Assembly: GCF_000002875.2 (NCBI RefSeq) | Contig: NC_009417.2 | Coordinates: 1,221,929 to 1,285,928, forward strand | Length of the DNA stretch: 64,000 nucleotides | Reading direction: 5' to 3' | From: Leishmania infantum JPCM5 | Lineage: Eukaryota; Euglenozoa; Kinetoplastea; Trypanosomatida; Trypanosomatidae | Shown here: positions 5,768 through 64,000 of the stretch, in pieces | Numbering within the stretch: the stretch's first letter is position 1 | Layout: each line of letters begins with the position of its first letter | Position numbers and translations under genes: made by a program | Notes under the pieces: generated by a model | The model's input: only the letters and a program-made list of their open reading frames with translations | The model's database searches: none | Told to the model about the DNA's origin: nothing

Positions 5768-8700
5768 ATGATGGCAAGTGGTGACTACATCTACGCCAAT
5801 GACCTCGATGATGGGGGCCTGATGGGCGCAACGGTGCGGCGTCATGAGCACAGCAGCTCCCTTTTTGTGGGTGTCACGCACGACAGTGCCGGGGAGTCGC
5901 AGTCACAGTACGACTACCTGGATGAGTCCCTGGTGGGGAGCTACGACAGAGGAGGCGATGGAGTACTGACAGCGCTGGAGCTTGAGGACTTTGCCGGGGC
6001 CGATGGCAGCAATTTGGCAAGCGTATTATCGGAGAGCAACTCTGTCTTTGACATCGGCGCTGAGGAGGCCAACATGCAGACACAGACACCGAGTGTGGCG
6101 AGCCGGTCCGTGAGCGGTGCTGACTTTGACACGCTGCCCATCACACCCATGGCTAAGCAGCCCATCGAGGAGCCACATGCAGCGTCGGCGTCGGTACCCA
6201 GACCTGCAGCGCCGAACTCAGCCGTCTCAGCGCACCACCTCAACCTCAGAATCAACACGGTGACAGACCTTAAGCGTCCTTCAACACCGGATAAGTATTT
6301 TGAGATTTTCGGAGGTGCCTCGGGCCTGGCGGCGGGGCACAACAACACAGTCAACTACAGCGCTAACACCAGCAGCGGCGATGCTCACCACCGAAGCGCG
6401 AAGGGCACGAGCAACCACCGTGCCACAAACGCAACTGTGACGGCTGCCGGCAAAGGGGCAGCGGCGGCTGGCCATACATCAAAGCTTTTCACGTTGCATC
6501 CCGGAACAGCCGCTGCTGGTGTGTCAACATGTCCTTCAGCGCCATCTGCGCCGCCCCCGTTGCACCCCTACCCCTCAGTCTCACAGCCACACAACGATAG
6601 CGAGGGGTTCAGTTTTGGCATCGACACCTTCTTACACGGCAACCAGCTTGGGTTTGGTCGTCAGCCATCCTTCAAACGGCTCACACCGGCCGTACAGGGC
6701 GAGTTGAAGAAGCCCTACTTTCTCTTGCACTTTGAGGATGGCGACGCGAACACCACTGCTGCTGCCGCGGCGGCGAAAGGGCATCCTGGGGCGAGTGCGT
6801 CCAGCACGAGCCTGCGCGCCGCTCCTGCTGCGGACCGGAATGCAGAAGAGTTCAATACGTGGCTCGAGGCACTGGAGCCGAAGGCGGCGGGGTTGTTGAC
6901 ATCTGCGCGTGGCGGCCCCTGCACGACGCACGCGGGCTCTGCAATTGGGGAGAACTTCAAGCGAGAGGTGGATGTCTTCATGAAGAATCTGCTTGGTGAC
7001 TACGATATGTTCGCCGGCGCCACGGCCACGGCACCGGTGAACAACTCATCTGTCTCGGGTGTCTCTCAGTTGTTGGTAGGAGGCAGCGGGCCCCTGAGCA
7101 GGCGGCGAGGCAGCGGCCCGCCTTGCCCCGCAGATTACCAACCATCAGACCTCGACGCGTTTCTGGGCGATGCGCGCACCCTCACCCCTCCTCTGCGATC
7201 CCCTACCCTGGCGGTGGGGCAGGCGAAGCAACGGCCTAGGCAATCAGGTGCCGTTGGTGCTCACACCTCGCTCGTAGGTTCACCGACACTGAAGACGACA
7301 GTGCCAACGACGATGACTGCCGGCAGCCCGTTCAGCGGTGAAGGGGGGAAGGGCAGCACCGGCGCTTACCCAAGGTCCAGCGCTACCGCCTCGGCATCAC
7401 CGCAACCACCGACCCGGGGCCATGCGACAAAATGCCGTCGGCACGTCTGGAGCACCTCCCTAGGGCCCAACAAAAGCACATCGGCGGCCGCCGTGAACGG
7501 CGAAGTTGTGCCGGATCCCACCTCTGCAGCGGCTACCGAGGCTCTGTCAACGACGAATTTCGCCAAGGCCGCCGCGAAACCGGCCAATGGGCAGCCAGCG
7601 CAGCGTTCCTGTGTGACAGCCGCATCGCAGACGGTGGCAGCCATAACTTGCGTGCAATCATACGCCTCGACAGGGGCGACTCGCGCCTCTGTCGCGGGGG
7701 CTGCCAAGCCAGCGACCGGTAAGGCGACCAACGCCTCTGCAAAGCCCGATGGCAGCGTTGGCGATGTTGCGCGGGCGCGTGACCCGGCAACCCCTAGCAC
7801 TGCGACGCCGTACCCTTACATGGATGAAGATCTCTTGGCGGGTGGCTACATGACAGGGCCGCCGCAGCTCATCCGCTCTCCAGTAGAGAGCAGCCCCACC
7901 GTACTGCCCGCGGCCCGCGTCGCAGTGGAGGCCCCATTCACCAACAGCAAGGAGAGAGGGGAGCGCAGTGACAGCAACACGAGTGACGCCGTCGCCCTGG
8001 CTGCGCGTGGTTGCCGCTCCTCGCTGTTGGACGGGCACATCAGCGCGTCGCAGCAGCGACTCTCGCTGCTCCAGCAGAAGCTGCGCCCGTCTCGGCACAA
8101 CCGTACACGCGGGGATGGTGACAGCAAAACCACCTCAGACTCCGACGGTCCAGGCATGACAGCATCAGAGGCACTACAGCGAGCGCCGGCTACCAGCAGT
8201 CGTGAAGGCTCACGAGAGTCTCCGATACCAGCTTGGAACGATCCGTACGGTCGCGCCGCGACTTCCCTGCCTTCGGAGTTGGTTACTGCGGTGTCCAGCA
8301 AAACGCGATTAGGCAGCCGTAGAAACGGTGACAGCACCCTGGGCGACGTGGGTAAAACATTCCTCTGTTTCGAGGAGGCGGCCGACGAGGACTTGGTGGA
8401 CAGTGGCGCCACGCGTGCAAACGTGCTGCCACCGCCCGTGTTCCTTGATCAAAACACCAGCGCACAGGAGGGCATGACTGCCAACAGCAGTACCTCCGGC
8501 TCTGGCGCCACTAGCAGCCATCTTCACTGCATCTGCAAGAATGGTGGGGCCACGACGCCGGCTGGCTGCAGGCGGCGCTCGTCGCGGGGACCTCTCTCGG
8601 AGCCAGTAACGGTGGAGCCCATCGCACTGAAGAAGTGCCTACCTATTCCGCTGCGGCCGTCGTCCCTAAGCCGGCAGGCGTCTGTCAGCCGAACGGACTG

Positions 8701-11700
8701 TGAGGCGACAACAAGTGGGGAGCACGGCGCGGCAGCGACGCCGCCGCGGCGACGTCTCACAGAGTTCCGCAACGGTGACTACATGCTGCCAGCCTTCTTG
8801 CTCAAGTCCCGCGTCTCTGCCACCACTGCCGAGGATTCGCATTTGGAAGCGTTGAAGCAGCAGGACCGCGACCGGCAGACGCAGCAGGCCAACGAGGAGC
8901 GGCGGCAGCGCATACAGGCCTTCATGTCAAAGCGAAAGGCCGAAAAGCAGCTGGAGGAGCTGCGGCGCCGCCAGCTGCTGGTGCAGGAGGGGAAGCCGGA
9001 GATGTGCCGTGAGATGCAGGAGCAACAGCGCATCCTGGAGGCCACCCCGCACCTGGAGACGTCCGGAACTGTCGGGAGTGGGCTTAACGCCATCAAGGCG
9101 GCGAAGCGCGTGAGCAAGTCGTCCCCGCAGCGCGACCGAGCAGTGCGGCAGCCGGTTCCGGCGGCTGGCCTCATTCCCAAGGCGGCAATGGTCGCAACAG
9201 TCAGCAGCCCCCACATCGAGGTGGCCGCACCTGCCGTGGCAGACACCCTCTCTCCCGCTGGACGTGGAAAGGGCAACGGTGCGGTAGCCAAAACCAACGT
9301 GCGCGCAGTGGTGGTGTTCACGAGCAGCTCCGGCGCTGAGAAAGGCGGTGTGCCTGTGACAGCCAAGGACGACGGCAACGGACGACGGCGCAGCAACGGC
9401 AGCATCGCCCCGAGCACGGCCGCGTCGGGGCTATTCGACGAGGGAACGGTGGGGGTTGTGGAGCTGAGTGAGAGCAGCAAGACGCTCAAGGTGCAGCAAC
9501 CACACGAGCGCACGCGCTTCTTCTTCGTGGACGAGTTTTTGCGCATCAGTGACGCTGAGGCGTCAAAGCAGGTCGAGCGGCCCGTCAGCACGAGGGGCAG
9601 CGGCGTCGTGGGTGGGGTGCTGCCGAACGGCGCATTGCCGCGGCGACGCTTGTCGTCGTTAACGCTGACGGAGATGAACCGCAAGTTTCTGGCTGGTGTG
9701 AACGTGGCGCTGTTGCTCGCGAGTACCGAGAAGGCGCATCACGCCTCACTAACGGCGATTCGGGAGGTGGTGGAGGGAGTGCTGTCGCACATGCCTCCCC
9801 ACGGGGAACTCTTTGCCTCCATCGCGTTCGTCGCCGGTGGCAACACGCAGGACCTGTTGCACGACCCCGAACGCGCAGTGCGCTCAACCTTCTCGACATC
9901 GCCGCTATTTGGCTCCACACTGGACGATGTCACCTACGTGGCAGTGACGGGAATCGGACACCTTTCAGCGATGGTGACAGAGTCGTACAAGCGGTGCGAC
10001 CTGGCGGTTCAGCGGCAGCAACCTAGTGCTGGCCTCCTTGTGATGTCGCTGTTGCTGAAGCAGCCGCGCGGCAGCGACGTTTTGCTGTCCTCGTACTTGA
10101 TCACAGACGCGGGGTGCGACGGCAGCACCTACTTAGCGGCCTTGTGCAAGGCACAGCACACCCCATTTGCGCTTTTCCACTCTGCGCTGGGCGGGCCGAC
10201 GTTGACGACGGCGCTGATGTCGGTGGACGTCGACGACACGGCGACGGTGGTGCCGCTGCTGAACGTGCAGCACCGACTCGCTAGTGTTACCAATAAGCCG
10301 TGCCGCGTGGGAAGTGTTCGACGCTTCTTGGAGCTAGCGCAGCAGAAGCTGCAGAACCGCGTCGAAGACGGGAAGTCCGGCAGGAGGCGGAGCTCCGGCT
10401 CCACCATAACGAAGGTGATTTCAGAGCAGCGGCGGAACAGCGTCAGCATCTCTAGTAGCAACAGTGTGAGCGACAGCACCAGCTGTTCACCGTCGTTAAG
10501 TGGGCACCGGGGGCGAAAGCAGCACCCTGGGTCCCGAGCACAGCTGCACAAGCGGCTTTTAGAGCAGGTTGCGACGGCGCAGAGCATCCTCAACGACCCC
10601 GCAGGCTATCGACCGAAGGCGGTGCGGGAGTCGTCGCAGGTTCGGCGCGCTAGGGCGCTCACGTCGACGGCGCCGGCGTCAACATCTGCTGCGCCGCCAC
10701 TGTCGGCAGCGACGCCCCCGCGCGCGCAGCGGCGCAGCGCAGACGACGGCGCGATGCCGAATCCGGACCTGGCGGCGCTGCGCAAGCGTTTGTCGACGAG
10801 CAAGGCGACAGCCACCGTCGACACGGTACTGCTGCCGTCGCGCGGCACTGGTTCTGCCCTGGCGCGCAAGCACTCCCCGTCATATACCGCCGTGGAGGAA
10901 CCGCCGATACAGCTCACGCAGCTGCTAGCCACGCGCCGCCGAAGCGATGCGCCGAACGTCGAGTCGGACGCGAGCGCCACGGCAAAGACACCACTGTCAC
11001 CAGCGACCACGCCTTCCAACCATCAGATTGCGCAGTTCCGTCCACTGCAGCAGAACTCTTCACCACTGGCAGGGCACAGAAGCGCCAGCATGTCGTTGAG
11101 TACTGCGTACGTGCGCCGCGGGAACGAAGGCGGGGCCGCGCCACACAGGACATGGTTTATGAACTTCGAGGATCTGGGTGACAGCACCACTGCGTCCGTA
11201 GGCAGCAGGCCCGGCGCGGGCACCTTGCTGAAGAAAGGCGAGCGAGGGGTGTCGCAAGATCCACCATTGTCCTCGGCAACGACAATGGCAGCCAAGCCAC
11301 TTAATGAACGTTGCATCGCGGACGACAGCGAGTTGTGTCAACGCGGCAAACCTGCGTTGGCCGGCGGTGCAGACGGGTCGATGCAACGGCCGATGTGTGC
11401 GCCACCGGGTGTGGGGAGCAGGCGTGTGGGTGCAGGTCGGAAAGGGCTGCTCGCGGCTCCTACGCGAATTGGGTCGAATGGACCACAGTGGCCCAGCATA
11501 GCCGCCATGGACCCCGGCAACATCCCGGTCGTTCCGTGCGTTGACTCCATCGACTCCTCGCTTGTACACGACGTCTCCGTGGCCGCGCGGCAGAGTTCGA
11601 CGGCCGACGACGGCAAGAAGGCGCCGATCCCGACGTCGACAAAGGTGCGCACGCTCGTCATCGTTGACCCACGCTGCTGCGAAACGTCGAACGTGACGTA

Positions 11701-13993
11701 CGATAATACAATGGTGATTGCCACCACCGACGATGACTTTGAGGAATACGACGTGGACGAGGTGCGCGAGGTGGCGCCGGCGCAGGAGTCGATTCAAGCG
11801 GACCTGCTGACGGAGCTGTGTAAAACACTGCTTCTCGGCGGCAACGCCTCCATTCTCGGCGCTGAGAGTCGTCCGACCGGCGTCTGTGCACAGGTGCTCA
11901 AGTCCGTTGTGCACACAATCTTTGCAGACATGAACCGCGATGGGACGCATCGCAGAGGACGTCTCAGCGTCTCAATTGTGAAGGTGAAGGGGGAGTCTGT
12001 TGTCGACTTGCTAAAGGACTCCGGCGAAGCGCAGAAGCTCGTCATTGCCATTTCGCCCCTGTTCGGCTCCTGCGTCCACGGTGTCACCTACTCTAATATC
12101 ACGAACTCGGCCACCTTCAACGCCACGATTGACGCCGCGCTGCTCCGCGCCGCCTCCGACGACAACGGCCGCGACTACGGCTTCCTCTTCTGCTCTCTCA
12201 TTTTCAAGCTGCAGCTAGAGGAGGAGGGAGACGTGCTCGTGTGCTCGCTGGTGGCAACCTTCGCCGGCGAGCACGTCGGGCTCTACACGTCTGTCCTGGA
12301 CCGCAGTCCTCTCGTACCGCGCGCGTTGTTCCACTACGCCCTCGGCGGCCCCAGCTACACGATCGCACTGCTCGGCATCGGCAGCGAGGAGTCTCGCGCC
12401 AACCAGATGCTGCAGGTGCAGCGGCGGTTGGGCGAGGTGAGCAACCGCGCGACACACCCGGGCAGTGTGGCGAAGTTCGTGGCCGGCATCCGCAACGACT
12501 TAACGCCGAACCTGATCGCCAAGTACGAGAGCACGCATGACCGGGATGAACGAGCGGCAACGAAGGAAATGATCGGGCGGCTGGCGGAGATGGTGAAGGA
12601 TGCAGACGCGCTTCTACACGACTTCGACCACCACCAGCCCAAGGCCTACCTGCACGAGGACCAGGAGCGGGGGACGGCGCCGACAGGCACGGCAGCCGTC
12701 AAAGGCCCCGATCCGGGTTCACTTGCCACGGCAGCGCCACGCAGGAACAACGCGAACGGCACTAATGACTCCAGTTTGATGAACAAAGCCTCTGCCGTCA
12801 GTGCCGTGGCGGCTACAGCGCCGCCGCCCACCAGCCGACCGGCTACGGAGCGCTCGTTGCCTTCCATCACCGCGGTGAACCCGGAGGGCGAGGGGAACCA
12901 CATCCAGTCGCTGGTATGTTTCGAGCAGGTGCTGATGGGCGCCGGCTCGGTCGCAGTGCACGGCAACTCGATCCTTTGCACGAGCCAGGGGGGAATGCGC
13001 TACGACAGCGACGAGGTGATTGTGTGCGACGAGTCACATCGGTCCTTGTCGTCGAAACTCATGGATAAACTGGTAGCCAAGTTCCTTGCCGGCTATCACA
13101 CGGGCTTGCTCGCCGCCGACAGCAGCTATAGCGCCTTCACGCCGCTGATGCTGCGCTGCATCGCTAACAGCATCCTCGACGCGATTCTCGGACGCGAGGC
13201 AGGGCCGCGTGAGGGCTTGACTTCCTCCGCTTCCTTCAAGCCACCCACGGTGACGGGCGAGCTGTACGTTTCCATTGCTCTCATCAAGGATGAAGTGACA
13301 GCTGACCTGCTGCCCACCGACGCCGACGCGACGTACCACCGCTTCGAGATGGAGCACAAACCTCTTTATGGCCCCCGCGTTGTCGGAGTAACGTCGCACC
13401 TCGTCTCCACACCGCAGGACTTCGACCACTTCCTAGCGGTGGCCATCGACAATGCCGATCCGGCGCTGCAGTCAGCAGATCCAGGCATCATGGTGGTCTT
13501 GCTGACCCTAACCCAGCGTGTAACGAAGCCGACCAAGGATGTGCTGGTGTCGTCGCTTTTGTGCACCGCCGTCTTCGACGCCGTTCATCATTACGAGCGT
13601 GTGCTGGGGGGCGATACGAGCGAGCCGTTGGAGTTGTTCCACAACATTCTCCGCGGGCCGTGCTTCACCGTCGCGCTGTTTGGCATCAGCGATGAGGAGG
13701 AGAACCCCGGCAAGCTGCTGCGCGCGCTTCACGGTATTACCCAAGTGCGCAACCGCCCCGCGGAGGTGAACAGTGTGTCGCGGCACATCCGAGAGCTGCA
13801 GCGCGGCATCGTGCAGCTGAAGGAGCGCATGACTCCGTCATCCAGCGAGGAGGAGAAAGAGTATATTCTGAGCCGCGTTAAGGTCGCCGAACATCTGCTG
13901 GCCGACGCGGAGGCGCTGCAGCGCAACACCCTTTCCTCCGTGCAGCCACGCCCCTTCGTCCCGCTTGGCGGCGCACCCCACTTGCGGGCATAG
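5768..13993 (+). CDS. Giant protein A: disordered N-terminus plus three degenerate kinesin-motor-like modules
   Basis: Intact 2741-residue frame with a double ATG (MM) at the start and a TAG stop. Residues 1-1020 are Ser/Thr/Ala/Gly-rich and probably disordered. Residues 1024-1093 are Arg/Glu/Gln-rich and likely coiled coil (AEKQLEELRRRQLL). Three paralogous modules follow at about 1177-1620, 1959-2295 and 2377-2741, separated by Ser/Ala-rich linkers. Each shows an FFVDEF or YDVDEV strand, a GVNVALL or GNASIL or GYHTGLL strand, SPLFGS or PLYGP, ALGGPxxT (LRGPCFT in the third), and GSVRRFL or a variant. The order matches kinesin motors, but no P-loop GxxxxGK[ST], SSRSH or DLAGSE is present, so ATP hydrolysis is unlikely. 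Modules 1 and 2 end in a (L)xDPxxxxP cap motif. The same modules occur in the genes at 19501, 30656, 40250 and 59610. Existence of the gene is certain; the kinesin relationship and a cytoskeletal role are inferences. Confidence 0.93.
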   Translation: MMASGDYIYANDLDDGGLMGATVRRHEHSSSLFVGVTHDSAGESQSQYDYLDESLVGSYDRGGDGVLTALELEDFAGADGSNLASVLSESNSVFDIGAEEANMQTQTPSVASRSVSGADFDTLPITPMAKQPIEEPHAASASVPRPAAPNSAVSAHHLNLRINTVTDLKRPSTPDKYFEIFGGASGLAAGHNNTVNYSANTSSGDAHHRSAKGTSNHRATNATVTAAGKGAAAAGHTSKLFTLHPGTAAAGVSTCPSAPSAPPPLHPYPSVSQPHNDSEGFSFGIDTFLHGNQLGFGRQPSFKRLTPAVQGELKKPYFLLHFEDGDANTTAAAAAAKGHPGASASSTSLRAAPAADRNAEEFNTWLEALEPKAAGLLTSARGGPCTTHAGSAIGENFKREVDVFMKNLLGDYDMFAGATATAPVNNSSVSGVSQLLVGGSGPLSRRRGSGPPCPADYQPSDLDAFLGDARTLTPPLRSPTLAVGQAKQRPRQSGAVGAHTSLVGSPTLKTTVPTTMTAGSPFSGEGGKGSTGAYPRSSATASASPQPPTRGHATKCRRHVWSTSLGPNKSTSAAAVNGEVVPDPTSAAATEALSTTNFAKAAAKPANGQPAQRSCVTAASQTVAAITCVQSYASTGATRASVAGAAKPATGKATNASAKPDGSVGDVARARDPATPSTATPYPYMDEDLLAGGYMTGPPQLIRSPVESSPTVLPAARVAVEAPFTNSKERGERSDSNTSDAVALAARGCRSSLLDGHISASQQRLSLLQQKLRPSRHNRTRGDGDSKTTSDSDGPGMTASEALQRAPATSSREGSRESPIPAWNDPYGRAATSLPSELVTAVSSKTRLGSRRNGDSTLGDVGKTFLCFEEAADEDLVDSGATRANVLPPPVFLDQNTSAQEGMTANSSTSGSGATSSHLHCICKNGGATTPAGCRRRSSRGPLSEPVTVEPIALKKCLPIPLRPSSLSRQASVSRTDCEATTSGEHGAAATPPRRRLTEFRNGDYMLPAFLLKSRVSATTAEDSHLEALKQQDRDRQTQQANEERRQRIQAFMSKRKAEKQLEELRRRQLLVQEGKPEMCREMQEQQRILEATPHLETSGTVGSGLNAIKAAKRVSKSSPQRDRAVRQPVPAAGLIPKAAMVATVSSPHIEVAAPAVADTLSPAGRGKGNGAVAKTNVRAVVVFTSSSGAEKGGVPVTAKDDGNGRRRSNGSIAPSTAASGLFDEGTVGVVELSESSKTLKVQQPHERTRFFFVDEFLRISDAEASKQVERPVSTRGSGVVGGVLPNGALPRRRLSSLTLTEMNRKFLAGVNVALLLASTEKAHHASLTAIREVVEGVLSHMPPHGELFASIAFVAGGNTQDLLHDPERAVRSTFSTSPLFGSTLDDVTYVAVTGIGHLSAMVTESYKRCDLAVQRQQPSAGLLVMSLLLKQPRGSDVLLSSYLITDAGCDGSTYLAALCKAQHTPFALFHSALGGPTLTTALMSVDVDDTATVVPLLNVQHRLASVTNKPCRVGSVRRFLELAQQKLQNRVEDGKSGRRRSSGSTITKVISEQRRNSVSISSSNSVSDSTSCSPSLSGHRGRKQHPGSRAQLHKRLLEQVATAQSILNDPAGYRPKAVRESSQVRRARALTSTAPASTSAAPPLSAATPPRAQRRSADDGAMPNPDLAALRKRLSTSKATATVDTVLLPSRGTGSALARKHSPSYTAVEEPPIQLTQLLATRRRSDAPNVESDASATAKTPLSPATTPSNHQIAQFRPLQQNSSPLAGHRSASMSLSTAYVRRGNEGGAAPHRTWFMNFEDLGDSTTASVGSRPGAGTLLKKGERGVSQDPPLSSATTMAAKPLNERCIADDSELCQRGKPALAGGADGSMQRPMCAPPGVGSRRVGAGRKGLLAAPTRIGSNGPQWPSIAAMDPGNIPVVPCVDSIDSSLVHDVSVAARQSSTADDGKKAPIPTSTKVRTLVIVDPRCCETSNVTYDNTMVIATTDDDFEEYDVDEVREVAPAQESIQADLLTELCKTLLLGGNASILGAESRPTGVCAQVLKSVVHTIFADMNRDGTHRRGRLSVSIVKVKGESVVDLLKDSGEAQKLVIAISPLFGSCVHGVTYSNITNSATFNATIDAALLRAASDDNGRDYGFLFCSLIFKLQLEEEGDVLVCSLVATFAGEHVGLYTSVLDRSPLVPRALFHYALGGPSYTIALLGIGSEESRANQMLQVQRRLGEVSNRATHPGSVAKFVAGIRNDLTPNLIAKYESTHDRDERAATKEMIGRLAEMVKDADALLHDFDHHQPKAYLHEDQERGTAPTGTAAVKGPDPGSLATAAPRRNNANGTNDSSLMNKASAVSAVAATAPPPTSRPATERSLPSITAVNPEGEGNHIQSLVCFEQVLMGAGSVAVHGNSILCTSQGGMRYDSDEVIVCDESHRSLSSKLMDKLVAKFLAGYHTGLLAADSSYSAFTPLMLRCIANSILDAILGREAGPREGLTSSASFKPPTVTGELYVSIALIKDEVTADLLPTDADATYHRFEMEHKPLYGPRVVGVTSHLVSTPQDFDHFLAVAIDNADPALQSADPGIMVVLLTLTQRVTKPTKDVLVSSLLCTAVFDAVHHYERVLGGDTSEPLELFHNILRGPCFTVALFGISDEEENPGKLLRALHGITQVRNRPAEVNSVSRHIRELQRGIVQLKERMTPSSSEEEKEYILSRVKVAEHLLADAEALQRNTLSSVQPRPFVPLGGAPHLRA

Positions 13994-19500: not shown

Positions 19501-22500
19501 ATGCAGAGCGCTCACGCGACAACGTCTCAGTTTACTGCCTCGCAGCCGTCTTGCGAGACGTTCGGGTCGCACTCCGCCTTGCAGGGAAGCACTGAATTGC
19601 AGCCGCAGCAGCCGCAGTCCCCGTCATCGAAGAGAGGGCCGGTGGGCAGCAGCACCGATAGCACCACGTGCACGGTGCCGGCGAGTGACGATAATGCTCT
19701 CGGCTACGCCTTGAGCGACGGGTGCTATGTGCCCCTCTGGGAAGAGGTAGAGTCGCCGCCATCGCTGCGGCCACTTCCTCAGCCTCTCGCCGTTTTTCGT
19801 GACACACAGTCGCCCACCGGCTCACGCAGCGATCCGAACGACAAAGCCGGCCCCTCGTCCTTGTCAACTGTTGACGACCGGATGCTCTTCTCGTCACAGC
19901 GACAAGGACCTGGCTGTGTCCCTGATCGTCATCGGCGTCATTCGCAGGCGTTGGAGACTCCGAAGGATGTAGATCTCCAGCCATGGAGGATAACCTCTAC
20001 AATGACGCAGCACCAGAAACCGAGCGACACCAGCAGCAGCAGCAGCAGCAGCAAGACCCGGGAAACTGAGGCGTCCCGCAAGAACAGCGGCGTCACGGCA
20101 CCTCCGCAGTTGTTGCGCTTGGAAGGAAGCGGGCGTGTTTCGCCGCGCCCCAGGGAGCCAAGCTCAATTCCTCTGGCGGCATCGGCACGCCAGCCGACCG
20201 GTGGGCGGCTTGAACCTCTGGGGCGCGCCGTCAGTTGCGACTCCGCTCCGGCAGCGCCGGCATCGTCGTACCCGCTACGAGTGGGAACGAGTAAGACGCT
20301 TGATACCACTTCCTTCGAAAGGATAGTGCTTACACCTGCGGCATCGGCGCCGACGTACTTTTGCGACACCAGCACCGAAAGCGGCGCCGGCACAGCGTCC
20401 TTCTTCCTGCGCGAACCAGTGCTCGCGAAGTCATCCTCGTTGAATGTCGGGCAAAACGTCGCCAGCGGTGGGTCTCCCCGTGCCGCGTGGCCTCTATCGT
20501 GGAGGGGCGCGCCCGGCGATTGCGGACGCTCCACCGGCGACGCTCCACACGCGGATCAGGCGCTGAGGAGTGGTGAGCCCATGGCGCAGGTTTGCCGGTC
20601 TTCTTCGGCAACCCGTCAAAGTTCTTCTTCCGTAGCAAGCGATCGAGGCTTGCTGTCTCCGATGCGAGTCTCACCGCAAGGGCCTGGCATGCCGGCTGCT
20701 GGTGCTGCTCACCACGCTACAAGCAGCAGAGGCGGCGAAGTCTTCTCGATCCACACGCTCGTGTCGCGCATCAAGAACGTCGACAATTTCGACTACGGCT
20801 TGCAGGCGCTCGGCTTTCCTGTCGAGGACTGCCGCCGCGTCTCGAAGGCATCCGCAGGGATGCGAGGGGAGCGTAGTAGCGGCGACTTTGGCAGCTATCT
20901 CATGGTGGCGTCTAACAGGTCTCGCGTCAAAGATCAGGGCGGCCACAGCCCTCGCAACCCCGCTGCCAAGACTGGTTCCACCGCAGGAGGCGGCGGCAGC
21001 TTTGCCGGCGCATCGTCGCTCCTGCCGCTCACACGCAGACAATCTAAGCTGCCGCTGACCTCGTCCGGCGTGCGCGCCGCCTCCCCTTCAGCATCTTTTG
21101 GCCTCTCTGGTGTGCCGCCTCACTCGAGCAAGAGCGCCAGCGCGGCAGCTTCGTCCTCAACTGCGCAGACCTCCATGTCGGCCAGCTTGTCGAAGACCCT
21201 TTCGAGAACGATGGCCCCGATGGCCATTGGGACTGAGCGGCCGGTGTCAACCGGTGACGGTCTCTTGTCGCCTGCCGCGCCTGGTGCACTTCGAACTTCT
21301 GCTGGCGCGGCCGCAGCGCGTCCGCAACTAGGAGGCGCCAACGAGCCAAGCTTCACCACTAGCGTTATCCCCGCAGCAGCGGTTGCGACTCCGCCGAGTG
21401 AGTCCCGCAGTAGCATTGGCAGCAGTGACGCTCTCGTGTCAGCATCTTTTCGCTCCATCGTCCTGCAGTCGCGTCGTCTGCCATACAAACTTGACGTCGT
21501 GTACGGAGATCTCGCGCACAGCTCGAGTAACTTCACCGGCAATAACTCACCATGCAGAAGCTCTGCACATGGCAACTCTTTCAAAGGCCCTGTGGCCGGT
21601 CGCGGCGGAGGTGTTGCCACCGGGTTCAGCTCTACAGCGAAGTCGTGGAGTGCGACGGATCAGTCTGAGAGGGGCGACGATGGAGGCGCACTCGCTGTTG
21701 TCGAGGGTGAGGAGAGCGACCCGCTGTCTGCAGCGCGCCGGATGCCCGGCTCGCTCGGGTGGACCTTTGGTGAGGACAATTTTCAGGACTATGAGGCACT
21801 TGTGTCACTGGCGGTGCCGCCGAGGAGCGGCAGCGGCAGCGGCAGCAGCAGCTCCAGCGACGGCAGCTTCTCCTTTGGTGAGTCGGACCTGGGTCTTACT
21901 CTCGAGGAGGGTAAACCCACGCCGCGGCAACTACGACGCCAAGGCGACGGCCTCGGTGGTGGCGGCAGTTTCACCCTCGAGGTGCCGGCTGATGGTGGTG
22001 TGCCGCTAGCAAAGGGAACGGGCAGGCGCAGTGGGCGAGACCGCGTCTGGGCAAGCGGCGATTATGGTAGCACTCCAGAGGGACGCCGCCTGCCACGTCG
22101 CTCCCGCGACACCTTCTTCCCCTTCGAAGACGGCAGCGTCAACTGCTCCCGCGGCTTCAGCAGCCTCGCGCTGTCGTCGTTTCTGCGGGATGCGGGGCCC
22201 ACCAACCTCAAGGGAATGGTGTGGGACTCCTCCTCCTCCGTGGCGCCGTCAAACCCCGTCAACTCGTCTGCTCAGGACACCTCTTCGCCGCCGTCGACGT
22301 CGGGCAGGACAGCCGTGATGGCGCGCGAGAAGGGCCGGATGGGTGGCCTCTCGCACCCTTCTCTCTTCCAGGGCATAAGTAGCACAACCGCCGGAACGCA
22401 AACGGTGCCGCTCGCCATCGTCTCCGCTACCAGTATTGCTGTCCACACCTCCACAGATCCCCTTGAGGTTCCCGCCCAGAGTTCACCGCTGACGATTCGC

Positions 22501-25500
22501 GGCGGTGCATCCACGAGCACGACCTTCGAGGCCGTGACGGGCGCGGCGAGGTCGAACCACCAAGTACCGCGGCCACCGATGAACGTGGGATCAGCAGCCG
22601 GTTTGGCACACCAGAACAAGGTGGGACAAGTCGCCGCGAGTGGGCCAGACGGCGTCAGCAGCAGCAACGGGACCGCCGAGGCGCCAGCGGAGCTCGTCCG
22701 CGCCGGTGTACTGCGATGGTCAAAACCCCTTCAAGCTGCGCGTATGAACCGCAACACTGTGTCCCCGTCGCACGGGGCGACGACTGCACGCTCCGCCCGT
22801 CGCACGCAGGATGAGCTTCCGGCCTCGGAGCTGGAGTTGCCGAGGCCGAAGGAATGGCTCGACGTGCGGGGGTTGACCGTGCTTGAGTGCTGTGGAGCAG
22901 CGGCAACGAACACGCCTGCGACAGCGCGGGTTTTCGCGGTAGATGGTGGCTACACAGTGCGCGTAGTCCAGGGTAACTTGGTCGGCGACTGCAAGACGGA
23001 CGAGTGCGTCCAGCGGTGCGCTGCTGCTATGGCTGCCGCCAACGAGGCGAACGCCCCCGACAAGGCCAGCGTCGCCGCATCGTCGCCGCCGCTTCCTTCC
23101 CTGCTGATTGACACGGCTGTTACGCGCTTCATCGAGGGTGGCGAAAATGCGATGGTGATAGTCATGGACACAGTGAATGACTTTGTGCAGCGACGGCGGG
23201 CTGCGGCGGCGGCAGCAGCCGTAAGTTTACAGGACAGCATGCGTGGCGGAGGTGGCTCGTCACCCTCGTCTTCGCTCTCTCCTCCGGCGCCGTCAACTCA
23301 CGCGGAAGCGTTCCCAACAGCGAGCGTGGCACGGGCAATGTGCATGCGCGTCGTCGAGAGCTTTCTTTCCTGCAAGGGCGTGCGAGCCAAGACACACCCG
23401 GACTGTGTGGCTGACTTGAAGGTGGCTGTTGCGCTGGTGCCGGTCAGCCTGCAGCTGAACTCTCCGCCGACACCGAGGCCTACGTCGACGCCGACAGCGC
23501 GCGCCAGCTCGCCTGCGGAGATTTCTCCTTACGCCGGTGAGAGAGGCGTCTTCTACGACGTGATCTACACTGCCTGCACTCGCGACACCTGCTGTCGCCC
23601 ACTCGAAGTGGCCACGTCGCCGATCTTCGGCGCATGTCTGAATGAGTGCCAGTGGCACGTGGTTGAGGACGAATCGGACATTGCTGTCGTCTTCGAGCTG
23701 GCGCAGAGCCTCGCGGGGGCCGCTCGCGGGCGGCAGCAGCAACGCCAGGGCTTCTTGTACATCCAATTCCTCCATCAGTGCTTCATTCCGGATGTGGCTG
23801 CCGCCCGCGGTGCGGATGCGGCGACGTCGCCAGTGTGCACGCAGCGGCGAGACAGTCGGCACGGCGATATAGTCGTTTCCTCATTTACCATCACCACCTC
23901 TCCCTATTCAAGCGTGGTCGAGTCCATTCTTGATCAGCGCGCCGACACGCCGTGGCCACTTCTGCGTTACGCGCTGGGGAAAGGGCCCTGCACCGTGCTG
24001 GCGGTGGTGAACGTGCACGAGGAGGACGAAGAAGCGGCATACCCGTTGAGCATTCTACAGCGGCTAAAGTCAATGCAGCACCCGCGACCGCGGTGCGGCA
24101 GCATACGCTCCTATATCGCTGAGCAGCGTAACAAGATCTCAGACCTCAAGTGGCGTTTGGCCAACATAACAGAGTCTCGGTCAGAAACGCAGGCCACTAT
24201 CAAGCGGCTGACGGTGCTCATCTCGAAGCTCGAGTGCGGCGCGAAGGATGCCGAGGATTTCTTGTCGGACCCCAAGTCTGCTCACGTGCCAGTATACGTA
24301 GACGCGCGAAAGGCAGTCCCTGAGGTCGGTGGCGCGGACCCACTTGTCCACACTTTCTCCCCGACCAGGGAGGCGGCACCGACGTGCGAGGCGCCTCAAG
24401 TGCTGGCTCTGGTGCAGCATTACTCTCCAGTCACCGGCTTCGCCTCGTACTCACCCAGAACCGTATCGTCTCGGCCCAAGGAAACGACGGCGCGGTGGCT
24501 CGCCGCTACGGCGCGAACGTCACCGATAGACTCGACCGCGCCACGCACGGTGTCGCTGACGGCGCAGCTGTCTTTAACACACTCCACTCGTGTCCAGGTA
24601 GGCGAGATCACTTCGCTTAGTGAGGCCAACACCTCGGAGCTGGGCTGGCAGCGGTGCGCGACGTGGCGCCGCCTCGGCGAGCGCTTTCGCAGCGGCTTCA
24701 ATGCCACCGTGGCTGTGGTGCAGGAGTCCGCCGGGGAGAACCGCGCGTGGTCGTTGCGGGTGGTACTCGAACTGGTCCGCAGTGTTCTCAAGGACTCGTG
24801 GGGACGCGTCTCGAACACGCCCGCCAAAGCTGGCGATGATGACCAGCCGCGGTTTTCCTCGCGTCAGGTGATGCGCGTCGCCGCGTCCGTCTACCACTGC
24901 AGCGACTCGGCTGTCGCCGATCTGCTCCGCACCTCCAGTACGAGTCGCATAGCCACTGGTACCTCCGTCCTCGGCACGGTGTCTTTTGCACCGGCGAAGA
25001 TGGCCGTGCGGCCGCTCGCCGGCGCGTGCGCACCAGTGAATGTGTCAAGCAAACCGATCGCTTCGCCAGGGGAGCTGGAGACGCTCTTGCGCGGGGCGGT
25101 CGAGCGCCTGCGTGCTGCGCAGGCTGCCGCAGAAGATGCAGCGTCGCACGATGGCGTGCAGGACGCACTCACGCGGCAGTGCCTGCTGGCGCCGGGGTAC
25201 ACCGTTATGAGCATCGAGCTTACGCAGCAGGTGACAGGGGCTCGCCGCCGCTCTCACGCGAGCATTGATGCGGAGCACTCTCTCAACGACAGCGAGGATG
25301 TGTACGTGAGCACTCTGACGGTTGTAAACCTTGGCGGCCACTACGCGTTGCTGTCGGAGGCAATCAGGGCAGACACCGCGGCGGGCGACGAGCACAAGGA
25401 CGACCCTATCGCACCTTATGCGAGGAGGACTGCAGCGACGATACCTGCAACATCTAGTGGCGCGGCGCCGTTGACAGCTAGGGCCCTGCTCGCGCGCCTC

Positions 25501-40249: not shown

Positions 40250-43200
40250 ATGCTACCCACCCCAGTGCAAGCAAAGCATGCCGCGAAGGCGGCCACGCCT
40301 CAGGCGACATGGGCGACAGCAGAGGCCCCGGCTAGTGTGGCTTCCAATCCGTCTCCTCGCCATGCAGCGAACGACACGCACGCTGCCACGCCGTCTGTCC
40401 ATACACGCCCGACAAACGACACTGCGCTTCCGGCGTTTGCCCCGTCAACACAGCGCGCGAGCTCACAGCCGACTGGGTCAGCTGCGAAGGCGGGGCTGCC
40501 GATACCGAAGGCGGACCCGTCTTTCATGCCCGAAAAGCCTATCTCCGCCTTCAGCCCAGGTATCTTGGCACGCGGGCAGCAGCCCGGCTCCGGCTACGGA
40601 ATAGGCTCGGCCATGGGGAGCTTTGGTGGTGGCGTGATGGCGCCGATGGGCGTCGGCGGTGCACCCAACCCAGCTTATGGGGCACAGTTTGTGCAGCCGC
40701 TCGGCGGCAGCAGCATGTACGGCGGTGGCTCCATGTTCGATGGAGCCCCTCCCGGTGCCGCCGATGGCTTCATGTACGGCGTGCAAAACCCAACCATGAT
40801 GCACGCCTCCAGTTATGGCACCTCCACAATGGACCCCTCGGGTGGCCCGGTGGGCAGCATGTACGGCATGGGTGGTCTGATGGGCAGCATGTACGGCGTG
40901 GGTAGCCTGATGGGGCCCATGGGTGGTGGCGGCTACGGAATGAGCGGCTACGGAATGAGCGGCTACGGCGCAGGCGGCTTCGGTGGTAGTCTCTATGGCG
41001 GCTCTCTGCTCGGTAACACCGGTAGTCTCTACAGCACGGGGGGCTCCCTCTACGGCAGCAGCGCCCCAAGGGCAGTGATGGGCAGCATGTACGGCAGTTT
41101 TATGGGCTCCATGTTTGGAGGTTTCGGCTCCATCTACCAAGTCGACGGTCCCCACACGAGCCTTGGTGTAGTGCGCAAGCAGTCTATTCCAGGCTTCTCC
41201 TACACGTTTGGGTCGAACCTGGGCACTACCGCGTACCGCCCGAGCTTTCACGTCGACTCGGCGGCATCGCGTAGCGGCAGCATGCGGGATAACACTTTTC
41301 GCACCTCCACCTCGATGAAGGCCAGCGAGCACGAGGCGGAGCCGAAAGTGAAGGCCGAGGAGACGGCCCGGCAGCACGGCTCGACCGGCGTTGACAAGGA
41401 CGGGAAGACGATTGCGGAGAAGCCCGAGGGCGACACGCCAGCTTCGGCCGCCGTGAAGGCGACGGAGCCCGAGTCGATCATGAAGAAGCGCACACCGGCG
41501 ACAGAAGCGCCAAAGTCGCCGACGACGGCGCGCCAGCAGGGCAGCTGCAACGCTGCCGGCCAGGCGTCGACGCTCTCTAGCGATTTTCGTATCCACAACG
41601 TGGCTGTGCTGGAGCAGGCGGGCGCCGGAAGTGCGACCGTGACGAAGAAAGACGAAACATGCGTGATGAAGGGCAAGTCGTTCGCGATGGACGAAGTGGT
41701 GGAGTACAAGCCAGCGAGCAAGAGGGCCGCCGTCGAGTCGCGTCATCTGAACGACCTCATCGAGCACGTGCTCGCAGGCCACAACAGTGCGATCCTCGTC
41801 GCCGACGACGGCAAGGCAGTAGGCGCCGCCAAGGCGGCTGTGGAGACGACCATGATGAAGCTGATAGAGGAACTCAGGAAGCCGGCACGCAACAGCTATG
41901 CGGGCCTGTCAATGACCATGTGCAGCTTGCCGAGTAACACGACAGTATGCGATCTCCTCGTTCACGATGCGAAGGCGACGCCGTTGAAGACGGGCAACTC
42001 GCCGCTTTTCGGGCCCGCCGTCGTGGGCCTCAAGTCGGAGCCCATCGAGAGTGGTGCCCACTTCGCGGAGCTGTACGACACCGCACTGAAGCGCGGCGAT
42101 CAGAAGTCGATAATGGTGTGCACGGTGGTCGTGTTGCAGATGCGGCCGGCCTCGAGCGAAGGCAAGGGAGAGGTGTTCCTGTCCTCTGTTTTCATCGGCG
42201 TCAGCCGTACCGGCCCAAAGGCGTTCCACGACATCATCGACAAGCTTCCTGCCTCTGCGCACGAGATCTTCCGTTACGCGATTGACGGCCCTACAGTGTG
42301 CGTGCACGTCGTTTCGGTAAGCCACGACACGACAGACGCAAAGGTGCTGGAGGAGGCGGCGAAGGTCGGCGCGGTCCAGAATAGCCCAGCACGCAGCGGC
42401 AACGTACGCCGCTTTATCGACTTCACGGAAAGCCAACTGAAAAGCATGTTGAAGCGCCGCGATGCGAGCACTGGCTCCGAGAAGGCGGAGCTTGACAACC
42501 ACGTGAAGCGGCTGAACGTAGTGCTGCAGGACGCGAAGAGTCTTCTGTCCAACCCCCAGAACACGGCACCGCCCGTCTACCAAACTGAGGTAGGGGCGAG
42601 CATTGCGGCAACTCTGGCAGAGCCGAAGACCACTGCCGCTCCAGAAGCTGCGGCCGCGGGCGAGGCGACGGACAAGCCTTCTTCGACTGCCGACTACAAG
42701 CCACGCAGCACCAACATCGCGGCTCTTGTAATCGCGGATGTGGCTGAGGCGCGCGCCTACTCGGTAAAGGACACGATCGTGACGTCCAGCGGTCGACCTT
42801 TTTCGGTAGATGAGGTGGTAATGCGCGACGCGGTGAAGTCGACGGCCATGAAGACCAAGACGACGGGCCGGGTTCTGACCGCCTTTCTCAAAGGGTACAA
42901 CGGAGCCGTCATCGTGGCGGATAGCACGGCGGTGGCTGCTAACGGAATGGAGTCACCGACAATGAGCTTCCTCTTCTCGGCCGTCGCCGGTGCCCTCGAG
43001 AATACAGGCTGCAAGGGGGTGCGCGTGTCCATCGCGCTCTTACGGGGGTCCGGCTCGGCGTGTGACTTGAGTGGCACCGCTGCGGAACTGAAACCGATCG
43101 AGGTGTCATCGTCTCCGCTGTTTGGCCCGATCCTGCAAAACGTTGCACTGCACCCCATTTGCGCGCAGGAGGATCTGCAGAAGATAGTGGACAAGGCACG

Positions 43201-51401: not shown

Positions 51402-51418
51402 TCTTCCTCACTCCTCAT

Positions 51419-51448
<30 letters not shown>
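51419..51448. repeat. CA dinucleotide repeat upstream of gene E
   Basis: About 14-15 uninterrupted CA units, about 107 bases before the ATG at 51555. It may lie inside the 5' UTR or just before the splice acceptor. Confidence 0.95.
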
Positions 51449-51450
<2 letters not shown>

Positions 51451-51554
51451 CCGCTCGCGAAGGCAAGCAAAACAGCAGCTGCAATAAAGTTTGCTTGCCG
51501 AGTTCACAGATACTGACACTGACACATACACGCACACACAGTCAGTCTCCAGCC

Positions 51555-52475
51555 ATGAGCTACGGCGGGTACGATCAAGGCTACGGCGGCGGCTTTGGGT
51601 GCAACATGCAAGACTATACTTACCAGCAGCAGCAGACGCTGCCGTACCAAGCGCATGGCGGCTACAACCTGTACGGGCAACTTGATGTACACCCTCCGCA
51701 GCAGATGAGTGGCGTGACCGGCAATGCTAATGGGGCTTACCAATACCACGGCTACACACAACCGTGCGGGGACGATGCTCACTCGACGGCGCTGAAGTCG
51801 TCGAAAAGCTTCACGGGTCCCTCAGCTGACGTGGAACGCAAACAGAGCAGCGTGACACGCACCCGTTCCATTGCCTCGCGCAGCAGCAAAGGCGGTGGCA
51901 CGGGCATGGCCCGCCACGGCAGCGTCTTCTTCGGAACCCGCGAGCGCGACACCCAAGTGGCCATCAGCACTCGCGGCGGCATGAGCGTGCGCGGCCTTGA
52001 CGAGGAGGAATTCGAGGAGTTAAAGCAGTACTACGGAGACATGGCGTGCCGTAACGAGGAGCGGCGCATGGACGGGCTGAAAGCTGTGCGGAGCTACCGT
52101 GGCGACATCGAGGACGGAGAGGATGTCGGCAAGCCGCGCCGCGTGACAAACCGCCGCAACGTGGACGGCCGCTCGGCGACCGGCTATGGTGGCATCAACT
52201 TCAAGCGCAAAGCAGCCATGCGCAATGGCGAGCAGTGGGGTGAGGTCGAGATCCGCAACAGGCCGAATGGCAACGGTGGCCGCTCGCGCAGCATGGAGAG
52301 ACCCGTCGTGCAGCAGCCGATACCCGGGCCGAGCATGTACATGGCACCCGCTGTGCTCGATGAGCCGCCGGTGGTGCCGCAGATATACAATCGGGAAGAT
52401 GTCCACTCTTATAGCAACATCAGTGACTCGTTTTCGGAGGCGGACGAGGGTGCACCGAGAGATTTCGACTACTGA
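51555..52475 (+). CDS. Protein E: small Gly/Tyr/Gln-rich protein of unknown function
   Basis: 306 residues from ATG 51555 (AGCC before it), stop TGA. The frame is open upstream to 51072, but that part translates pyrimidine and CA tracts (a His-Thr run), so I start at MSYGGYDQGYGG. Residues 1-75 are Gly/Tyr/Gln-rich and aromatic. Residues 80-125 are basic and Ser/Arg-rich (RTRSIASRSSKGGG). The middle (about 148-250) is highly charged, with DEEEFEELKQYYGD, RRVTNRRN and NFKRKAAM. The C-terminus is acidic (SEADEGAPRDFDY). It has no module of the neighbouring family, no signal peptide and no membrane segment. The GY-rich N-terminus recalls the SMYG-rich N-termini of the neighbours, and it sits between two of them. 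This suggests, without proving, a shared assembly. I do not recognise the family. Confidence 0.9.
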   Translation: MSYGGYDQGYGGGFGCNMQDYTYQQQQTLPYQAHGGYNLYGQLDVHPPQQMSGVTGNANGAYQYHGYTQPCGDDAHSTALKSSKSFTGPSADVERKQSSVTRTRSIASRSSKGGGTGMARHGSVFFGTRERDTQVAISTRGGMSVRGLDEEEFEELKQYYGDMACRNEERRMDGLKAVRSYRGDIEDGEDVGKPRRVTNRRNVDGRSATGYGGINFKRKAAMRNGEQWGEVEIRNRPNGNGGRSRSMERPVVQQPIPGPSMYMAPAVLDEPPVVPQIYNREDVHSYSNISDSFSEADEGAPRDFDY

Positions 52476-54728: not shown

Positions 54729-54748
54729 TGTATATATATATATATACA
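54729..54748. repeat. TA dinucleotide repeat
   Basis: About nine TA units, self-complementary, flanked by ATG and CATT. It lies in non-coding DNA. Confidence 0.9.

Positions 54749-58728: not shown

Positions 58729-58732
<4 letters not shown>

Positions 58733-58761
<29 letters not shown>
58733..58761. repeat. CA dinucleotide repeat
   Basis: About 14 CA units in the spacer before gene F. Confidence 0.95.
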
Positions 58762-58764
<3 letters not shown>

Positions 58765-59430
58765 CTCCATCTTTCACGTTGGTGCGCACACGCATCTGTG
58801 TTGGACTGCCACCACCATCACCACTCCACGACACTCACATGCACAGACAGACGTATACGCGGTCAGTAACGCACTTGAATTCTTGTTGCTGCGCGTTCTG
58901 TTTTTTTTTTTGGTTTCTTCTCTTTGAGCTTCTCTCTGCATCGATTCACCGTGCTTGCGTGTTTGCTCAAGCAAGCAGGTGAGCGCAGCCGTCATAGCAG
59001 GCGTAGGTAAGAGCACGCAAAAGAAACGAAACACACACACACACACATACAGCAGTCGCCGCACGGATAGCAGCACCCTATTTTGGTTCTCAAGCCTCTC
59101 CGCTTCTCTCTCCCGCCTTTTCCCGTACTCCAACGGTTTTCTTTTTTTTTTTGTCGTGTGTATCTCCATTCTCGCTTGTTTTCTTCTCTGTTTTGCGTGT
59201 GCACCCCCCCTCTTCCTCTCTTCATCTCTCACAAGCCGTGGAGTTTCGTGTGTGACTGTGAGAGGGTCTGCACGTACGCTGTACCTCCGTCTCCTTCGCC
59301 CACCCTTTTACCGGTGTGGCCACTGCAGCGACTCATAGTTAGCTTCCATCTCTTCCGCCCATCTTTCTTGCGTGCTGCTATTCGGCAGGTTCAGTTTTTT
59401 GTTCTTTGTCTTTTTGTTTCCACTGTTGTG

Positions 59431-59473
59431 CCCCCTCCCCCGTACCTCCTCTTCCTCTGCTGTTTTTCCGTAG
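59431..59473 (+). promoter_or_regulatory. Candidate spliced-leader acceptor for gene F
   Basis: CCCCCTCCCCCGTACCTCCT continues T/C-rich (CTTCCTCTGCTGTTTTTCC) to GTAG, with AG at 59472-59473. This leaves a 136-base 5' UTR. It is the clearest acceptor in the window: an uninterrupted tract, the first AG, and a short distance to the ATG. Confidence 0.6.
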
Positions 59474-59609
59474 TGCTGCGCTTGCGATCCTTGCCCTCGT
59501 CGGTCAAAGTGGTCGTGTATTCTCACCCCACATCGGCCTCGTGCGGGTCCTTTCTTGAGTCCCTCAAACCTGTGTGTGCTTCTTTGCGTGCTACAGCTCG
59601 ATACTCGAG

Positions 59610-62600
59610 ATGGCCTCTAGTGCGAAGAAAAAGGAGAAGACCGGCCACCGCCGCTCCTCGTTGTCGTCCAACTCCGGAGACAAAAAGCCTTCGTCCGTAT
59701 CCTCTGCACACATGAGCAGCAGCGGCCACAAGCCTTCGGCATCTGGCGGTGCACAGCTCCCGCGGCATCAGAGCACCGCATCAGCGGCCGTGCCTTCGTC
59801 CTTGCCGCGAAAGCCGTCGGCGAGGGTATCTGCTTCAGCGTCCAAGCCAGCCGCGCCTTTCGCAGCTTTGCAAAGCGATGCCAAGCGCGCGGGCAGCAGC
59901 GCTTCCCCTGTGCCATCGTCGGCGGCTCCCACGACTATACAAGCCGGTTTCCCCGCCACGTCTCCTGCCAGCGGTGCACGCAGCGCGCCCGCTCCTGCTG
60001 GGGCTCCGACAACAGCCAATGCGGCGCCAGGCTCGCAGAACGCTATGGTCGCCGATGGCTATGGCTGGATGGGGCCCACCGGCTACGACTCCATAGGTGC
60101 CGATGGGGCGGGTACCATGGAATACAATGGATTGGGGTCCATGGGCCCTGGCGGTTATATCATGGGCGATGGCAGGCACAACTACCTGGGGGGATACGGC
60201 TCAATGGGCCCTGGTGGCTACGGCAGCATGAATGGCAGTGTGTCGGGCAACTACGGCTCCATAGGCGGTGGTGAAAACGGCATGACCTCGATTTACGGCA
60301 TGGGTGGGCCGATGGGCTCCATGTACGGCATGGGCAGCAACCTGATGGGCTCCATGTACGGCATGGGCGGCAACCCGATGGGCTCCATGTACGGCATGGG
60401 CGGCAACCCGATGGGCTCCATGTACGGCATGGGCGGCAACCCGATGGGCTCCATGTACGGCCTGAGTTGCTACAACATGGGTCTGGGCAGCAACGGAGCC
60501 TCCATGTACGGCATCGGCCCCTTCAACAGCCGCATGAGCTTTCGCAGCACCGGCGGCTACGTCGGCGGCGCCTTCGGCAGCCTCTGGCGTGCACCGTCAG
60601 CCTACACCTCGCGTCCGAAGCAGGACATCAGCATCCCACCGCCGTCCTCGTCCCTTCACGAGGAGATGCGGGAAGAAAAGGATGACACAGCAGGCACGTC
60701 GAAGGACTCGGGCGCGAAGGCCACTGCGCGCGGCGAGGCGACTCTCGGTGCGGAGAAGAGCAAGACGCATGCCGTGGAGGGCACGGGGGCCGACAAGAAG
60801 GACGCGGACGCGAAGGATGCGGAGAAGAGTCGCGACCGTGCCATGCCGACGGCGATGGCGTCTTCGCACCGTCTTACGAAGCAGGTGAACGACAACGTGC
60901 ACGTCATTGCCGTGTTGGCGAAGGAGTCGATGCTGAGCCACCCCGACAAGTCCGTGACGGTAGGCACAAACACGTACCAGATGGACGAGGTTGCGGTGTC
61001 CCCGGTGAATATAGACAAGTCGGACTTGCTGAGGGATATCGTGGAGCAGACGCACTGCGGCCACAACGTGTCCATACTGGCCCTCTGCGGCTCTCAGCCG
61101 TACACGGCGTGCACTGAACCAATCACTGCCGTTGTCAAGCGCATGATGGAGTCGTTCGCGGAGGATAAGGCGCAGGTGACGCAGGTGAAGGCGTCGGCGG
61201 TGTCGTTCGCCGAGGCCGGCAACATGATCGACCTCCTCGAGGCGAACGCGAAGCCGGCCAAGGCGGAGATCGGCTCCAACCCGATCTACGGCCCGTGTGT
61301 GATGAACGCGTCTGAGAAGGACATCATGTCGGCGGCTGAGGCGGCCGAGGTTGTCATCGGTACCGCCGCGAAGGCTGCGAAAGAGTGTCTCGTCGTCATC
61401 ATGTACAAGATCAAGCAGATCCGCCCTGTCACCACGAGCGGCGCCGCGCCAGCGAAGGACGTGTACGTCTCGTCCATGCTAGTCGCCATGGTGAACGACG
61501 CCGGCATGCAGAATCTGAAGGCGGCCGAGAAGCACGCCACAACTGAACCCGCGCTCATCTTCACCAACGCGATTGGCGGCGCTAGCCGCACCGTGGCCAT
61601 TGTGCATGTGCCGGAGAAAGATGCTGAAAAGCTGGTCGGCGGCGCCGCCGCCCACTCCCAGGGCCTACGCGAAATCAAGAACTCGCCAACACGCAGTGGC
61701 AACGTAAAGCGCTTTATCGACTACACGGAGCGCGCAGCGGCAGCCAACACGAAGGCGTCCCCGGAGACCACAGCGAAGATTGACCGTATGCTCAAGGACG
61801 CGAAGGAGCTGCTGGCCAGGCCTGAGCAGACGCCGCTGATGGCGTACAACCTCTTTGGTAGCAACTCGTCCACGAGCCCGCCGGAGACGGTGCCCCAAAG
61901 CGGCGAGGCTGCCGCGAAGAAGGCTGATGCGCCGGCCGAACCCGCTGCGGAGAAGCCCGCCGAAACGGTCGCTGTGGCGTCTGACGCCACGCCGACCGCT
62001 AAGCCAGAGTCGGAGACGCAGGTGCGTCTTGTCGTGTGCGTCGACGGCACGGCGACAATTCTGGCGGAGCGGGTGAGGGCGGATGAGGTGGTGGTCCGAA
62101 CCCACCCGGACGAAGTGCCCGAGTCAGATACGCTCAAGACGCTGCGCGCCGTTTTCGGTAAGGGCCGCAACGTGGCCTTGCTCTCGGCAGAGACGCAGCC
62201 GAGGATTCCGCTCAAAAACCAGTACACATGGAAGAGCGTTGCAGAGATCCTTACAAAGGCGTTTGAGTCGCCACCGGTGCAGGCGAAAGACACGTGCATT
62301 GAGCTCTTCATGTCCGTTGTGCGCAAGCGCCAGGTGCTCTGCGATCTCATGGCGAACGGCGCGGCGTCGGCGGGGCCCAAGCCTCTCGGCACGGCGTCGT
62401 CGCCGCTCTTTGGTCCGGTCCTTGTCGACACGACCTACAAAACATTGCGGCAGGCGTTAGACGTGAAGCCGGCACTGGATCAGGCGCTGCAAGCCGCTCC
62501 GGCCCACCTCACGGAGCCGGACTCCATGATTGTCATGACGGCGGTGCTGAAGCAACTGAAGACGAACGACGATGTGGTCGTGGCCTCTTTCATGGCCGCC

Positions 62601-64000: not shown

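Follow-up and report, generated by a model that had tools for sequence, protein, structure and literature searches.

The closest described relatives of the genes considered here belong to the ARND (Adhesion Related NTPase-like Domain) family, named by Owino et al. (PNAS, 20 July 2026; PMC13416946). According to its main text, the family has 11 members in Leishmania mexicana, LmxM.17.1030 and ten genes on chromosome 32 (LmxM.32.2890, 2900, 2905, 2910, 2930, 2940, 2960, 2970, 2980 and 3010, of which 2940 is KIAP4), with kinesins as their best structural matches and the Walker A motif lost. Seven members are found in the adhered flagellum, with a strong signal in the adhesion plaque for LmxM.32.2890, 2910 and 2930, and deletion of KIAP4 showed that it is required for colonising the sand fly valve. 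The authors expect protein-protein interaction, speculate on septin-like filaments and draw a parallel with the calpain-like proteins of kinetoplastids, a family that has expanded around a dead enzyme domain and has cytoskeletal roles, although that domain is unrelated to the ARND module. The word "microtubule" does not occur in the main text. The stretch analysed here, 64,000 nucleotides of Leishmania infantum JPCM5 (contig C33, positions 1221929-1285928; hereafter the window, in whose numbering all coordinates are given), is an ARND gene array. The initial annotation held that its five tandem paralogues matched no characterised family, a claim that the published description overturns.

The array resembles that of L. 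mexicana in its place on the homologous chromosome, with one gene elsewhere (LmxM.17.1030 there, a gene on contig C17 here), in proteins that carry at least one kinesin-like NTPase domain without Walker A, apparently with disordered regions as well, and in the order of its members, gene by gene. By that order the five window genes, which start at 5768, 19501, 30656, 40250 and 59610 and are named here by these positions, correspond to LmxM.32.2890, 2900, 2905, 2910 and 2930. All such matches to LmxM locus numbers reflect gene order only; the mapping is backed by how the genes are numbered in other species, L. martiniquensis among them, where LSCM1_02803, 02806 and 02812 match 40250, 66949 and 106624. 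The main text of PMC13416946 has ten array members, whereas 11 are present here, the extra one by order being 106624-109785. Module counts per gene, a shortened microtubule-binding segment and a co-linear module tree were not found in that main text, relative to which the module anatomy, the shortened segment, the module history and one probable extra member are new.

An iterative profile seeded with one module finds 16 modules in the five window genes. As a guard against circularity, the profile was rebuilt 11 times, each time without one array gene, and every left-out gene was found with all its modules (23/23; 85.7-772.8 bits per protein). For the five window genes the whole-protein E values range from 3.1e-77 to 1.5e-233, and at 37.7 bits (E 5e-10) module 2 of 19501 is the weakest single module. 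Of the control proteins, 1,400 shuffled and 14 reversed, these profiles matched not one. The count of 3+3+3+4+3 modules given in the initial annotation is returned unchanged by these profiles. Compared with its module length of 350-390 residues the cores are a little shorter, at 325-358 residues in 17 of the 23 array modules, with 387-492 residues in six insert-bearing ones. When all 24 modules are aligned, pairwise identity averages 20.1% (range 13.1-36.7), and E43, D129 and G149 are invariant in all 23 array modules. The anchor motifs listed earlier are real but loose; in relaxed form, [FY]xxDE occurs in 10 of the 24 modules, GxNxAxL in 21, SPxFG in 16, GGPxxT in 21, GSVxxFI in 21 and DP..Y in 17. 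So low a mean identity might suggest unrelated folds that share anchor motifs by chance. Given the scores of the left-out genes and the unmatched controls, that reading is vanishingly improbable and was rejected. The evidence supports a single homologous family of pseudo-motors, as first proposed, with a kinesin fold from which the nucleotide motifs are gone.

By BLASTP, each of the five window genes is linked to 66949 (8e-8 to 7e-42), and ten of the 11 array proteins have a link to another member at 1e-5, the exception being 106624. Five queries of one module each, run on the whole genome, found no member beyond C33 and C17, though a very diverged member could escape a single-sequence search; weak matches elsewhere were kinesins or had E >0.5. 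A profile search of six-frame pieces of the window and 14 10-kb flanks returned known genes only, and a search of the PDB with the whole 2741-residue protein of 5768 gave no match. In total, 11 array genes with 23 modules on C33 and one module on C17 make up the 24 modules.

The fold was read from the first module of 40250, which was modelled (pLDDT 91.6, pTM 0.91) and searched; the remaining 22 array modules and that on C17 were assigned by profile. The best matches of the model are kinesins, and it retains the full kinesin topology. KIF13B, KIF15, KLP-6 and KIF14 are the closest solved structures. The profile and Foldseek lists are headed by kinesin-3 chains and that of VIA-align by KIF15 and kinesin-2, within one Z unit, so no single kinesin class stands out as the ancestor.

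Like the kinesin motor domain (Pfam PF00225), the modules have its fold, its strand order and the G-x-N, D-L-L and GG signposts; they differ in lacking Walker A and both switches (I and II), in a halved loop 11-helix 4-loop 12 segment and in occurring in up to four copies per protein. The comparison set comprised 17 kinesins of the same genome, with two degenerate ones, L040 and L041, set aside. Walker A (GxxxxGK[ST]) and the switch I motif SSR[ST]H are each present in 0/24 modules versus 17/17 of these kinesins, and the switch II motif DLAGSE in 0/24 versus 16/17. Helix 4 together with loops 11 and 12 is the main microtubule contact of kinesins. The span that holds them, between the switch II position and the helix 5 GG, is 31-35 residues long in 22 of the 24 modules, against 59-80 in the 17 kinesins, 57 in L040 and 48 in L041 (48-80 in 19/19). 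In the modelled module just two helices, 218-224 and 232-235, lie between the strands that flank this segment. This is the single clear-cut excision, since the remaining loops have spans that modules and kinesins partly share; for the same reason, loss of the P-loop and switch I loop by length was dropped and motif loss alone is claimed. Nucleotide motifs are thus gone from the module, most copies of which have also lost half of the main microtubule-binding segment, and an active motor was rejected on these grounds.

Of the two kinesins set aside, L041 (C6:148800-150300) has GPPESGRS where Walker A belongs, and L040 (C31:1295000-1296400) is without the usual switch motifs. The ARND profile picks up neither of them, and they look like separate instances of motor decay.

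The member genes and their parts are as follows; modules without further comment are profile matches.

5768-13993, + strand: member gene 1, 2741 residues, three modules in the C-terminal half
9431-10615, + strand: gene 1 module 1, a profile match that carries an insert
11633-12652, + strand: gene 1 module 2, Pfam Kinesin 28.0 bits, slightly below the 29.3 cut-off
12887-13960, + strand: gene 1 module 3
19501-27606, + strand: member gene 2, 2701 residues, three divergent modules
22846-24300, + strand: gene 2 module 1, a profile match that carries inserts
24529-25806, + strand: gene 2 module 2, the most degenerate (the weakest of the leave-one-out test), without the short switch II-helix 5 span
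26326-27486, + strand: gene 2 module 3
30656-35437, + strand: member gene 3, 1593 residues, three modules
31115-31354, + strand: gene 3 Gly/Ser/Met/Tyr-rich low-complexity stretch, 76% of these residues across 80
31799-32818, + strand: gene 3 module 1
33044-34054, + strand: gene 3 module 2
34394-35410, + strand: gene 3 module 3
40250-46084, + strand: member gene 4, 1944 residues, four modules, Pfam Kinesin 36.6 bits, above the cut-off
40859-41098, + strand: gene 4 Gly/Ser/Met/Tyr-rich low-complexity stretch, 76% across 80 residues
41567-42583, + strand: gene 4 module 1, the modelled module
42704-43705, + strand: gene 4 module 2, the extra module, outside every positional clade of the tree
43898-44908, + strand: gene 4 module 3
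45077-46081, + strand: gene 4 module 4
51555-52475, + strand: non-member gene within the array, 306 residues, no Pfam match
59610-64085, + strand: member gene 5, 1491 residues, three modules, last 85 bases past the window end
60198-60437, + strand: gene 5 Gly/Ser/Met/Tyr-rich low-complexity stretch, 80% across 80 residues
60873-61850, + strand: gene 5 module 1
61947-62993, + strand: gene 5 module 2
63105-64079, + strand: gene 5 module 3, crosses the window end at 64000
66949-69714: member gene beyond the window, one module
76503-78872: member gene beyond the window, one module
84611-89344: member gene beyond the window, one module
90573-94247: member gene beyond the window, two modules
106624-109785: member gene beyond the window, one module
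115852-119190: member gene beyond the window, one module
C17:487726-488742: twelfth member, off the array, one module, 213 bits in the profile search

All five + strand open frames in the window are confirmed. The proteins of the window match L. donovani records at 98-99% identity, which places the locus in a Leishmania of the L. donovani complex. The initial annotation described an array in one direction with a single other gene; this is correct for the window among + strand genes of at least 250 residues, where only 51555-52475 intervenes, but the locus continues to 119190 with six more members.

Low-complexity stretches and a disordered linker are seen in the array proteins, where ARND proteins are marked by coiled-coil and disordered regions. 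A Gly/Ser/Met/Tyr-rich N-terminal stretch with at least six SxYG motifs occurs in six of the 11, and one more has two such motifs. At least two are present in 19/19 KIAP4-like relatives, from Leishmania to T. brucei and T. congolense. When two modules of the 40250 protein are modelled together, both of them fold, but pLDDT stays below 50 in the linker (341-382) and pTM reaches only 0.51 overall, for which reason the modules look, in the model, like beads on a flexible string.

The module tree has three strongly supported branches, and 13 of 21 are drawn open. One clade joins the first modules of 30656, 59610 and 90573 (95/92) and another unites module 2 of both 30656 and 59610 with module 3 of 40250 (92/93); a less firm one joins the last modules of 30656, 40250 and 59610 (82/80). 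The co-linear history is read from these three clades only, much of the remaining tree being without resolution, and the positional groups as wholes are not single clades (four changes for first, three for second and three for last modules). The clades fit duplication of whole multi-module genes, with an extra module in 40250 and the last module lost in 90573. The evidence supports tracing part of the array to such duplications; the earlier proposal of repeated gene and module duplication holds for that part.

Viewed against the published work, the locus is probably an array of dead kinesins whose products serve as a non-catalytic scaffold of the adhesion plaque. The ARND domain, present in one to four copies per protein, would descend from a kinesin motor. 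It most likely acts as a rigid, ligand-free protein-binding block, neither motor nor microtubule binder, because its ATP-binding motifs are gone and its microtubule-gripping segment is cut to about half. Multi-module members, as beads on flexible linkers, would cross-link partners, and the low-complexity N-termini of several members could aid dense packing. If the L. infantum proteins act as their L. mexicana counterparts do, they would assemble, in the insect stage, a cytoskeletal adhesion plaque beneath the membrane of the flagellum. Transmission is helped when the parasite is stably attached to the sand fly valve. The initial annotation had spoken of a multivalent structural assembly; a structural role agrees with the localisation and the KIAP4 deletion in L. 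mexicana (PMC13416946), but the assembly is still something we infer. More tentatively, the modules could form a separate post-motor class, heads stripped of both nucleotide machinery and microtubule segment and turned into a neutral plaque-building block, one to four per chain, packed by their Gly/Ser/Met/Tyr-rich tails and including BLASTP-invisible members such as 106624-109785. If the modules have lost their ATP and microtubule sites, ATPase and motility assays would miss their function, and protein-protein binding and polymerisation become the targets. The module counts and traced duplications mark likely cross-linkers, with three to four heads, as against single blocks.

Several observations weigh against the scaffold account. 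The Pfam Kinesin model matches just two of the 11 array proteins, one above the cut-off and one slightly below, and the other nine not at all. Two of the 24 modules are without the short span, 19501 module 2 (65 residues) and 84611 (69 residues), both among the most divergent, and the P-loop and switch I spans are shorter on median yet overlap the kinesin range. The tandem model leaves module packing unfixed, and four of the 11 array proteins have no SxYG motif. In L. mexicana the plaque signal of LmxM.32.2905 is weak and LmxM.32.2900 fell outside the selection criteria of the paper (PMC13416946). A mitochondrial link also has to be considered: one 40250 orthologue bears the name 'Present in the outer mitochondrial membrane proteome 22', the name POMP22 is used in L. 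guyanensis and others, POMP22 and POMP22B of T. brucei (Tb927.2.5530 and Tb927.2.5610) are listed as ARND paralogues, and POMP22B is mitochondrial in procyclics (PMC13416946). It may be that the window genes serve the mitochondrial outer membrane, with adhesion as a side role. Given that in L. mexicana seven members lie in the adhered flagellum, and that only one T. brucei paralogue is reported as clearly mitochondrial (PMC13416946), this is very improbable.

Modules without ATPase could instead bind microtubules and anchor the plaque to those of the axoneme or lysosome, a role that the full kinesin topology of the model would suit. Non-catalytic kinesin-like heads that act on microtubules exist; Vik1/Cik1 and other non-catalytic kinesins share the kinesin fold without catalysis. 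However, Vik1/Cik1 work on microtubules as one dimer head, whereas ARND proteins have up to four heads per chain, and the loop 11-helix 4-loop 12 segment of nearly all modules falls below the whole kinesin range. Microtubule binding is made less likely by this shortening; binding via another face could still occur, and overall such a role is unlikely. The term 'pseudokinesin' was found in the literature consulted in one passing use (PMC5076506). A somewhat better case can be made for a septin-like filament former, in which single-module members such as KIAP4 would polymerise under the membrane and shape it. The authors of PMC13416946 speculate along these lines in the main text, and the domain, which is compact and has C-terminal helices (280-300 and 303-328 in the model) that may form coils, could polymerise. 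The fold is that of a kinesin, however, and mostly multi-module window proteins with long linkers would fit cross-linking better than a regular filament, which leaves the septin-like reading doubtful. It overlaps with the scaffold account, and both could hold.

The extra array member, 106624-109785, is likely an ARND protein overlooked by BLASTP lists, as judged from its sequence. Among the 11 array proteins it has no BLASTP link to another member below 1e-2; the orthologue in L. mexicana, P0045 (87% identity), likewise links to none of the relatives compared below 7e-4. Membership in PMC13416946 was set, per its main text, by iterative BLASTP from KIAP4 at 1e-5, and LmxM.32.3000, the counterpart by order, is not mentioned there. 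A profile built without 106624 finds it at 98.2 bits, and one that includes the C17 module finds 13/13 orthologous proteins at 89.8-124.5 bits. The module retains the shortened segment, at 34 residues. BLASTP lists of the family would be incomplete, because this member was overlooked, and claims that a species has no ARND proteins need a profile search.

The array non-members are 51555-52475 (306 residues) and 100817-101800 (327 residues), which are module-free and have Gln/Gly/Tyr-rich N-termini. BLASTP links them neither to the array proteins nor to each other. By their position they are possible candidates for plaque partners.

In the 66949-69714 frame, residues 1-131 are probably upstream sequence, as the L. 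donovani record has 790 residues and would start at the internal Met 132. An antisense open frame of 434 residues (40478-41782, - strand) lies opposite 40250 and is probably a by-product of the coding strand's bias. On contig C33 upstream of the window (about -29900 to -4200) there are large repeats, nearly identical to each other (4.5 kb at 98%, 3.1 kb at 99.7%) and spaced about 8-18 kb, and the roughly 36 kb ahead of the first member gene have no long convincing gene. This repeat-bearing stretch could be a strand-switch region, a repeat region or an assembly effect. Beyond the window, two array spacers share a 1.2-kb intergenic element (103315-104547 and 112566-113798, 99.8% identical), and an 805-base piece of it lies in a third (72664-73468, 99.0% identity). 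These are recent copies amid very diverged genes.
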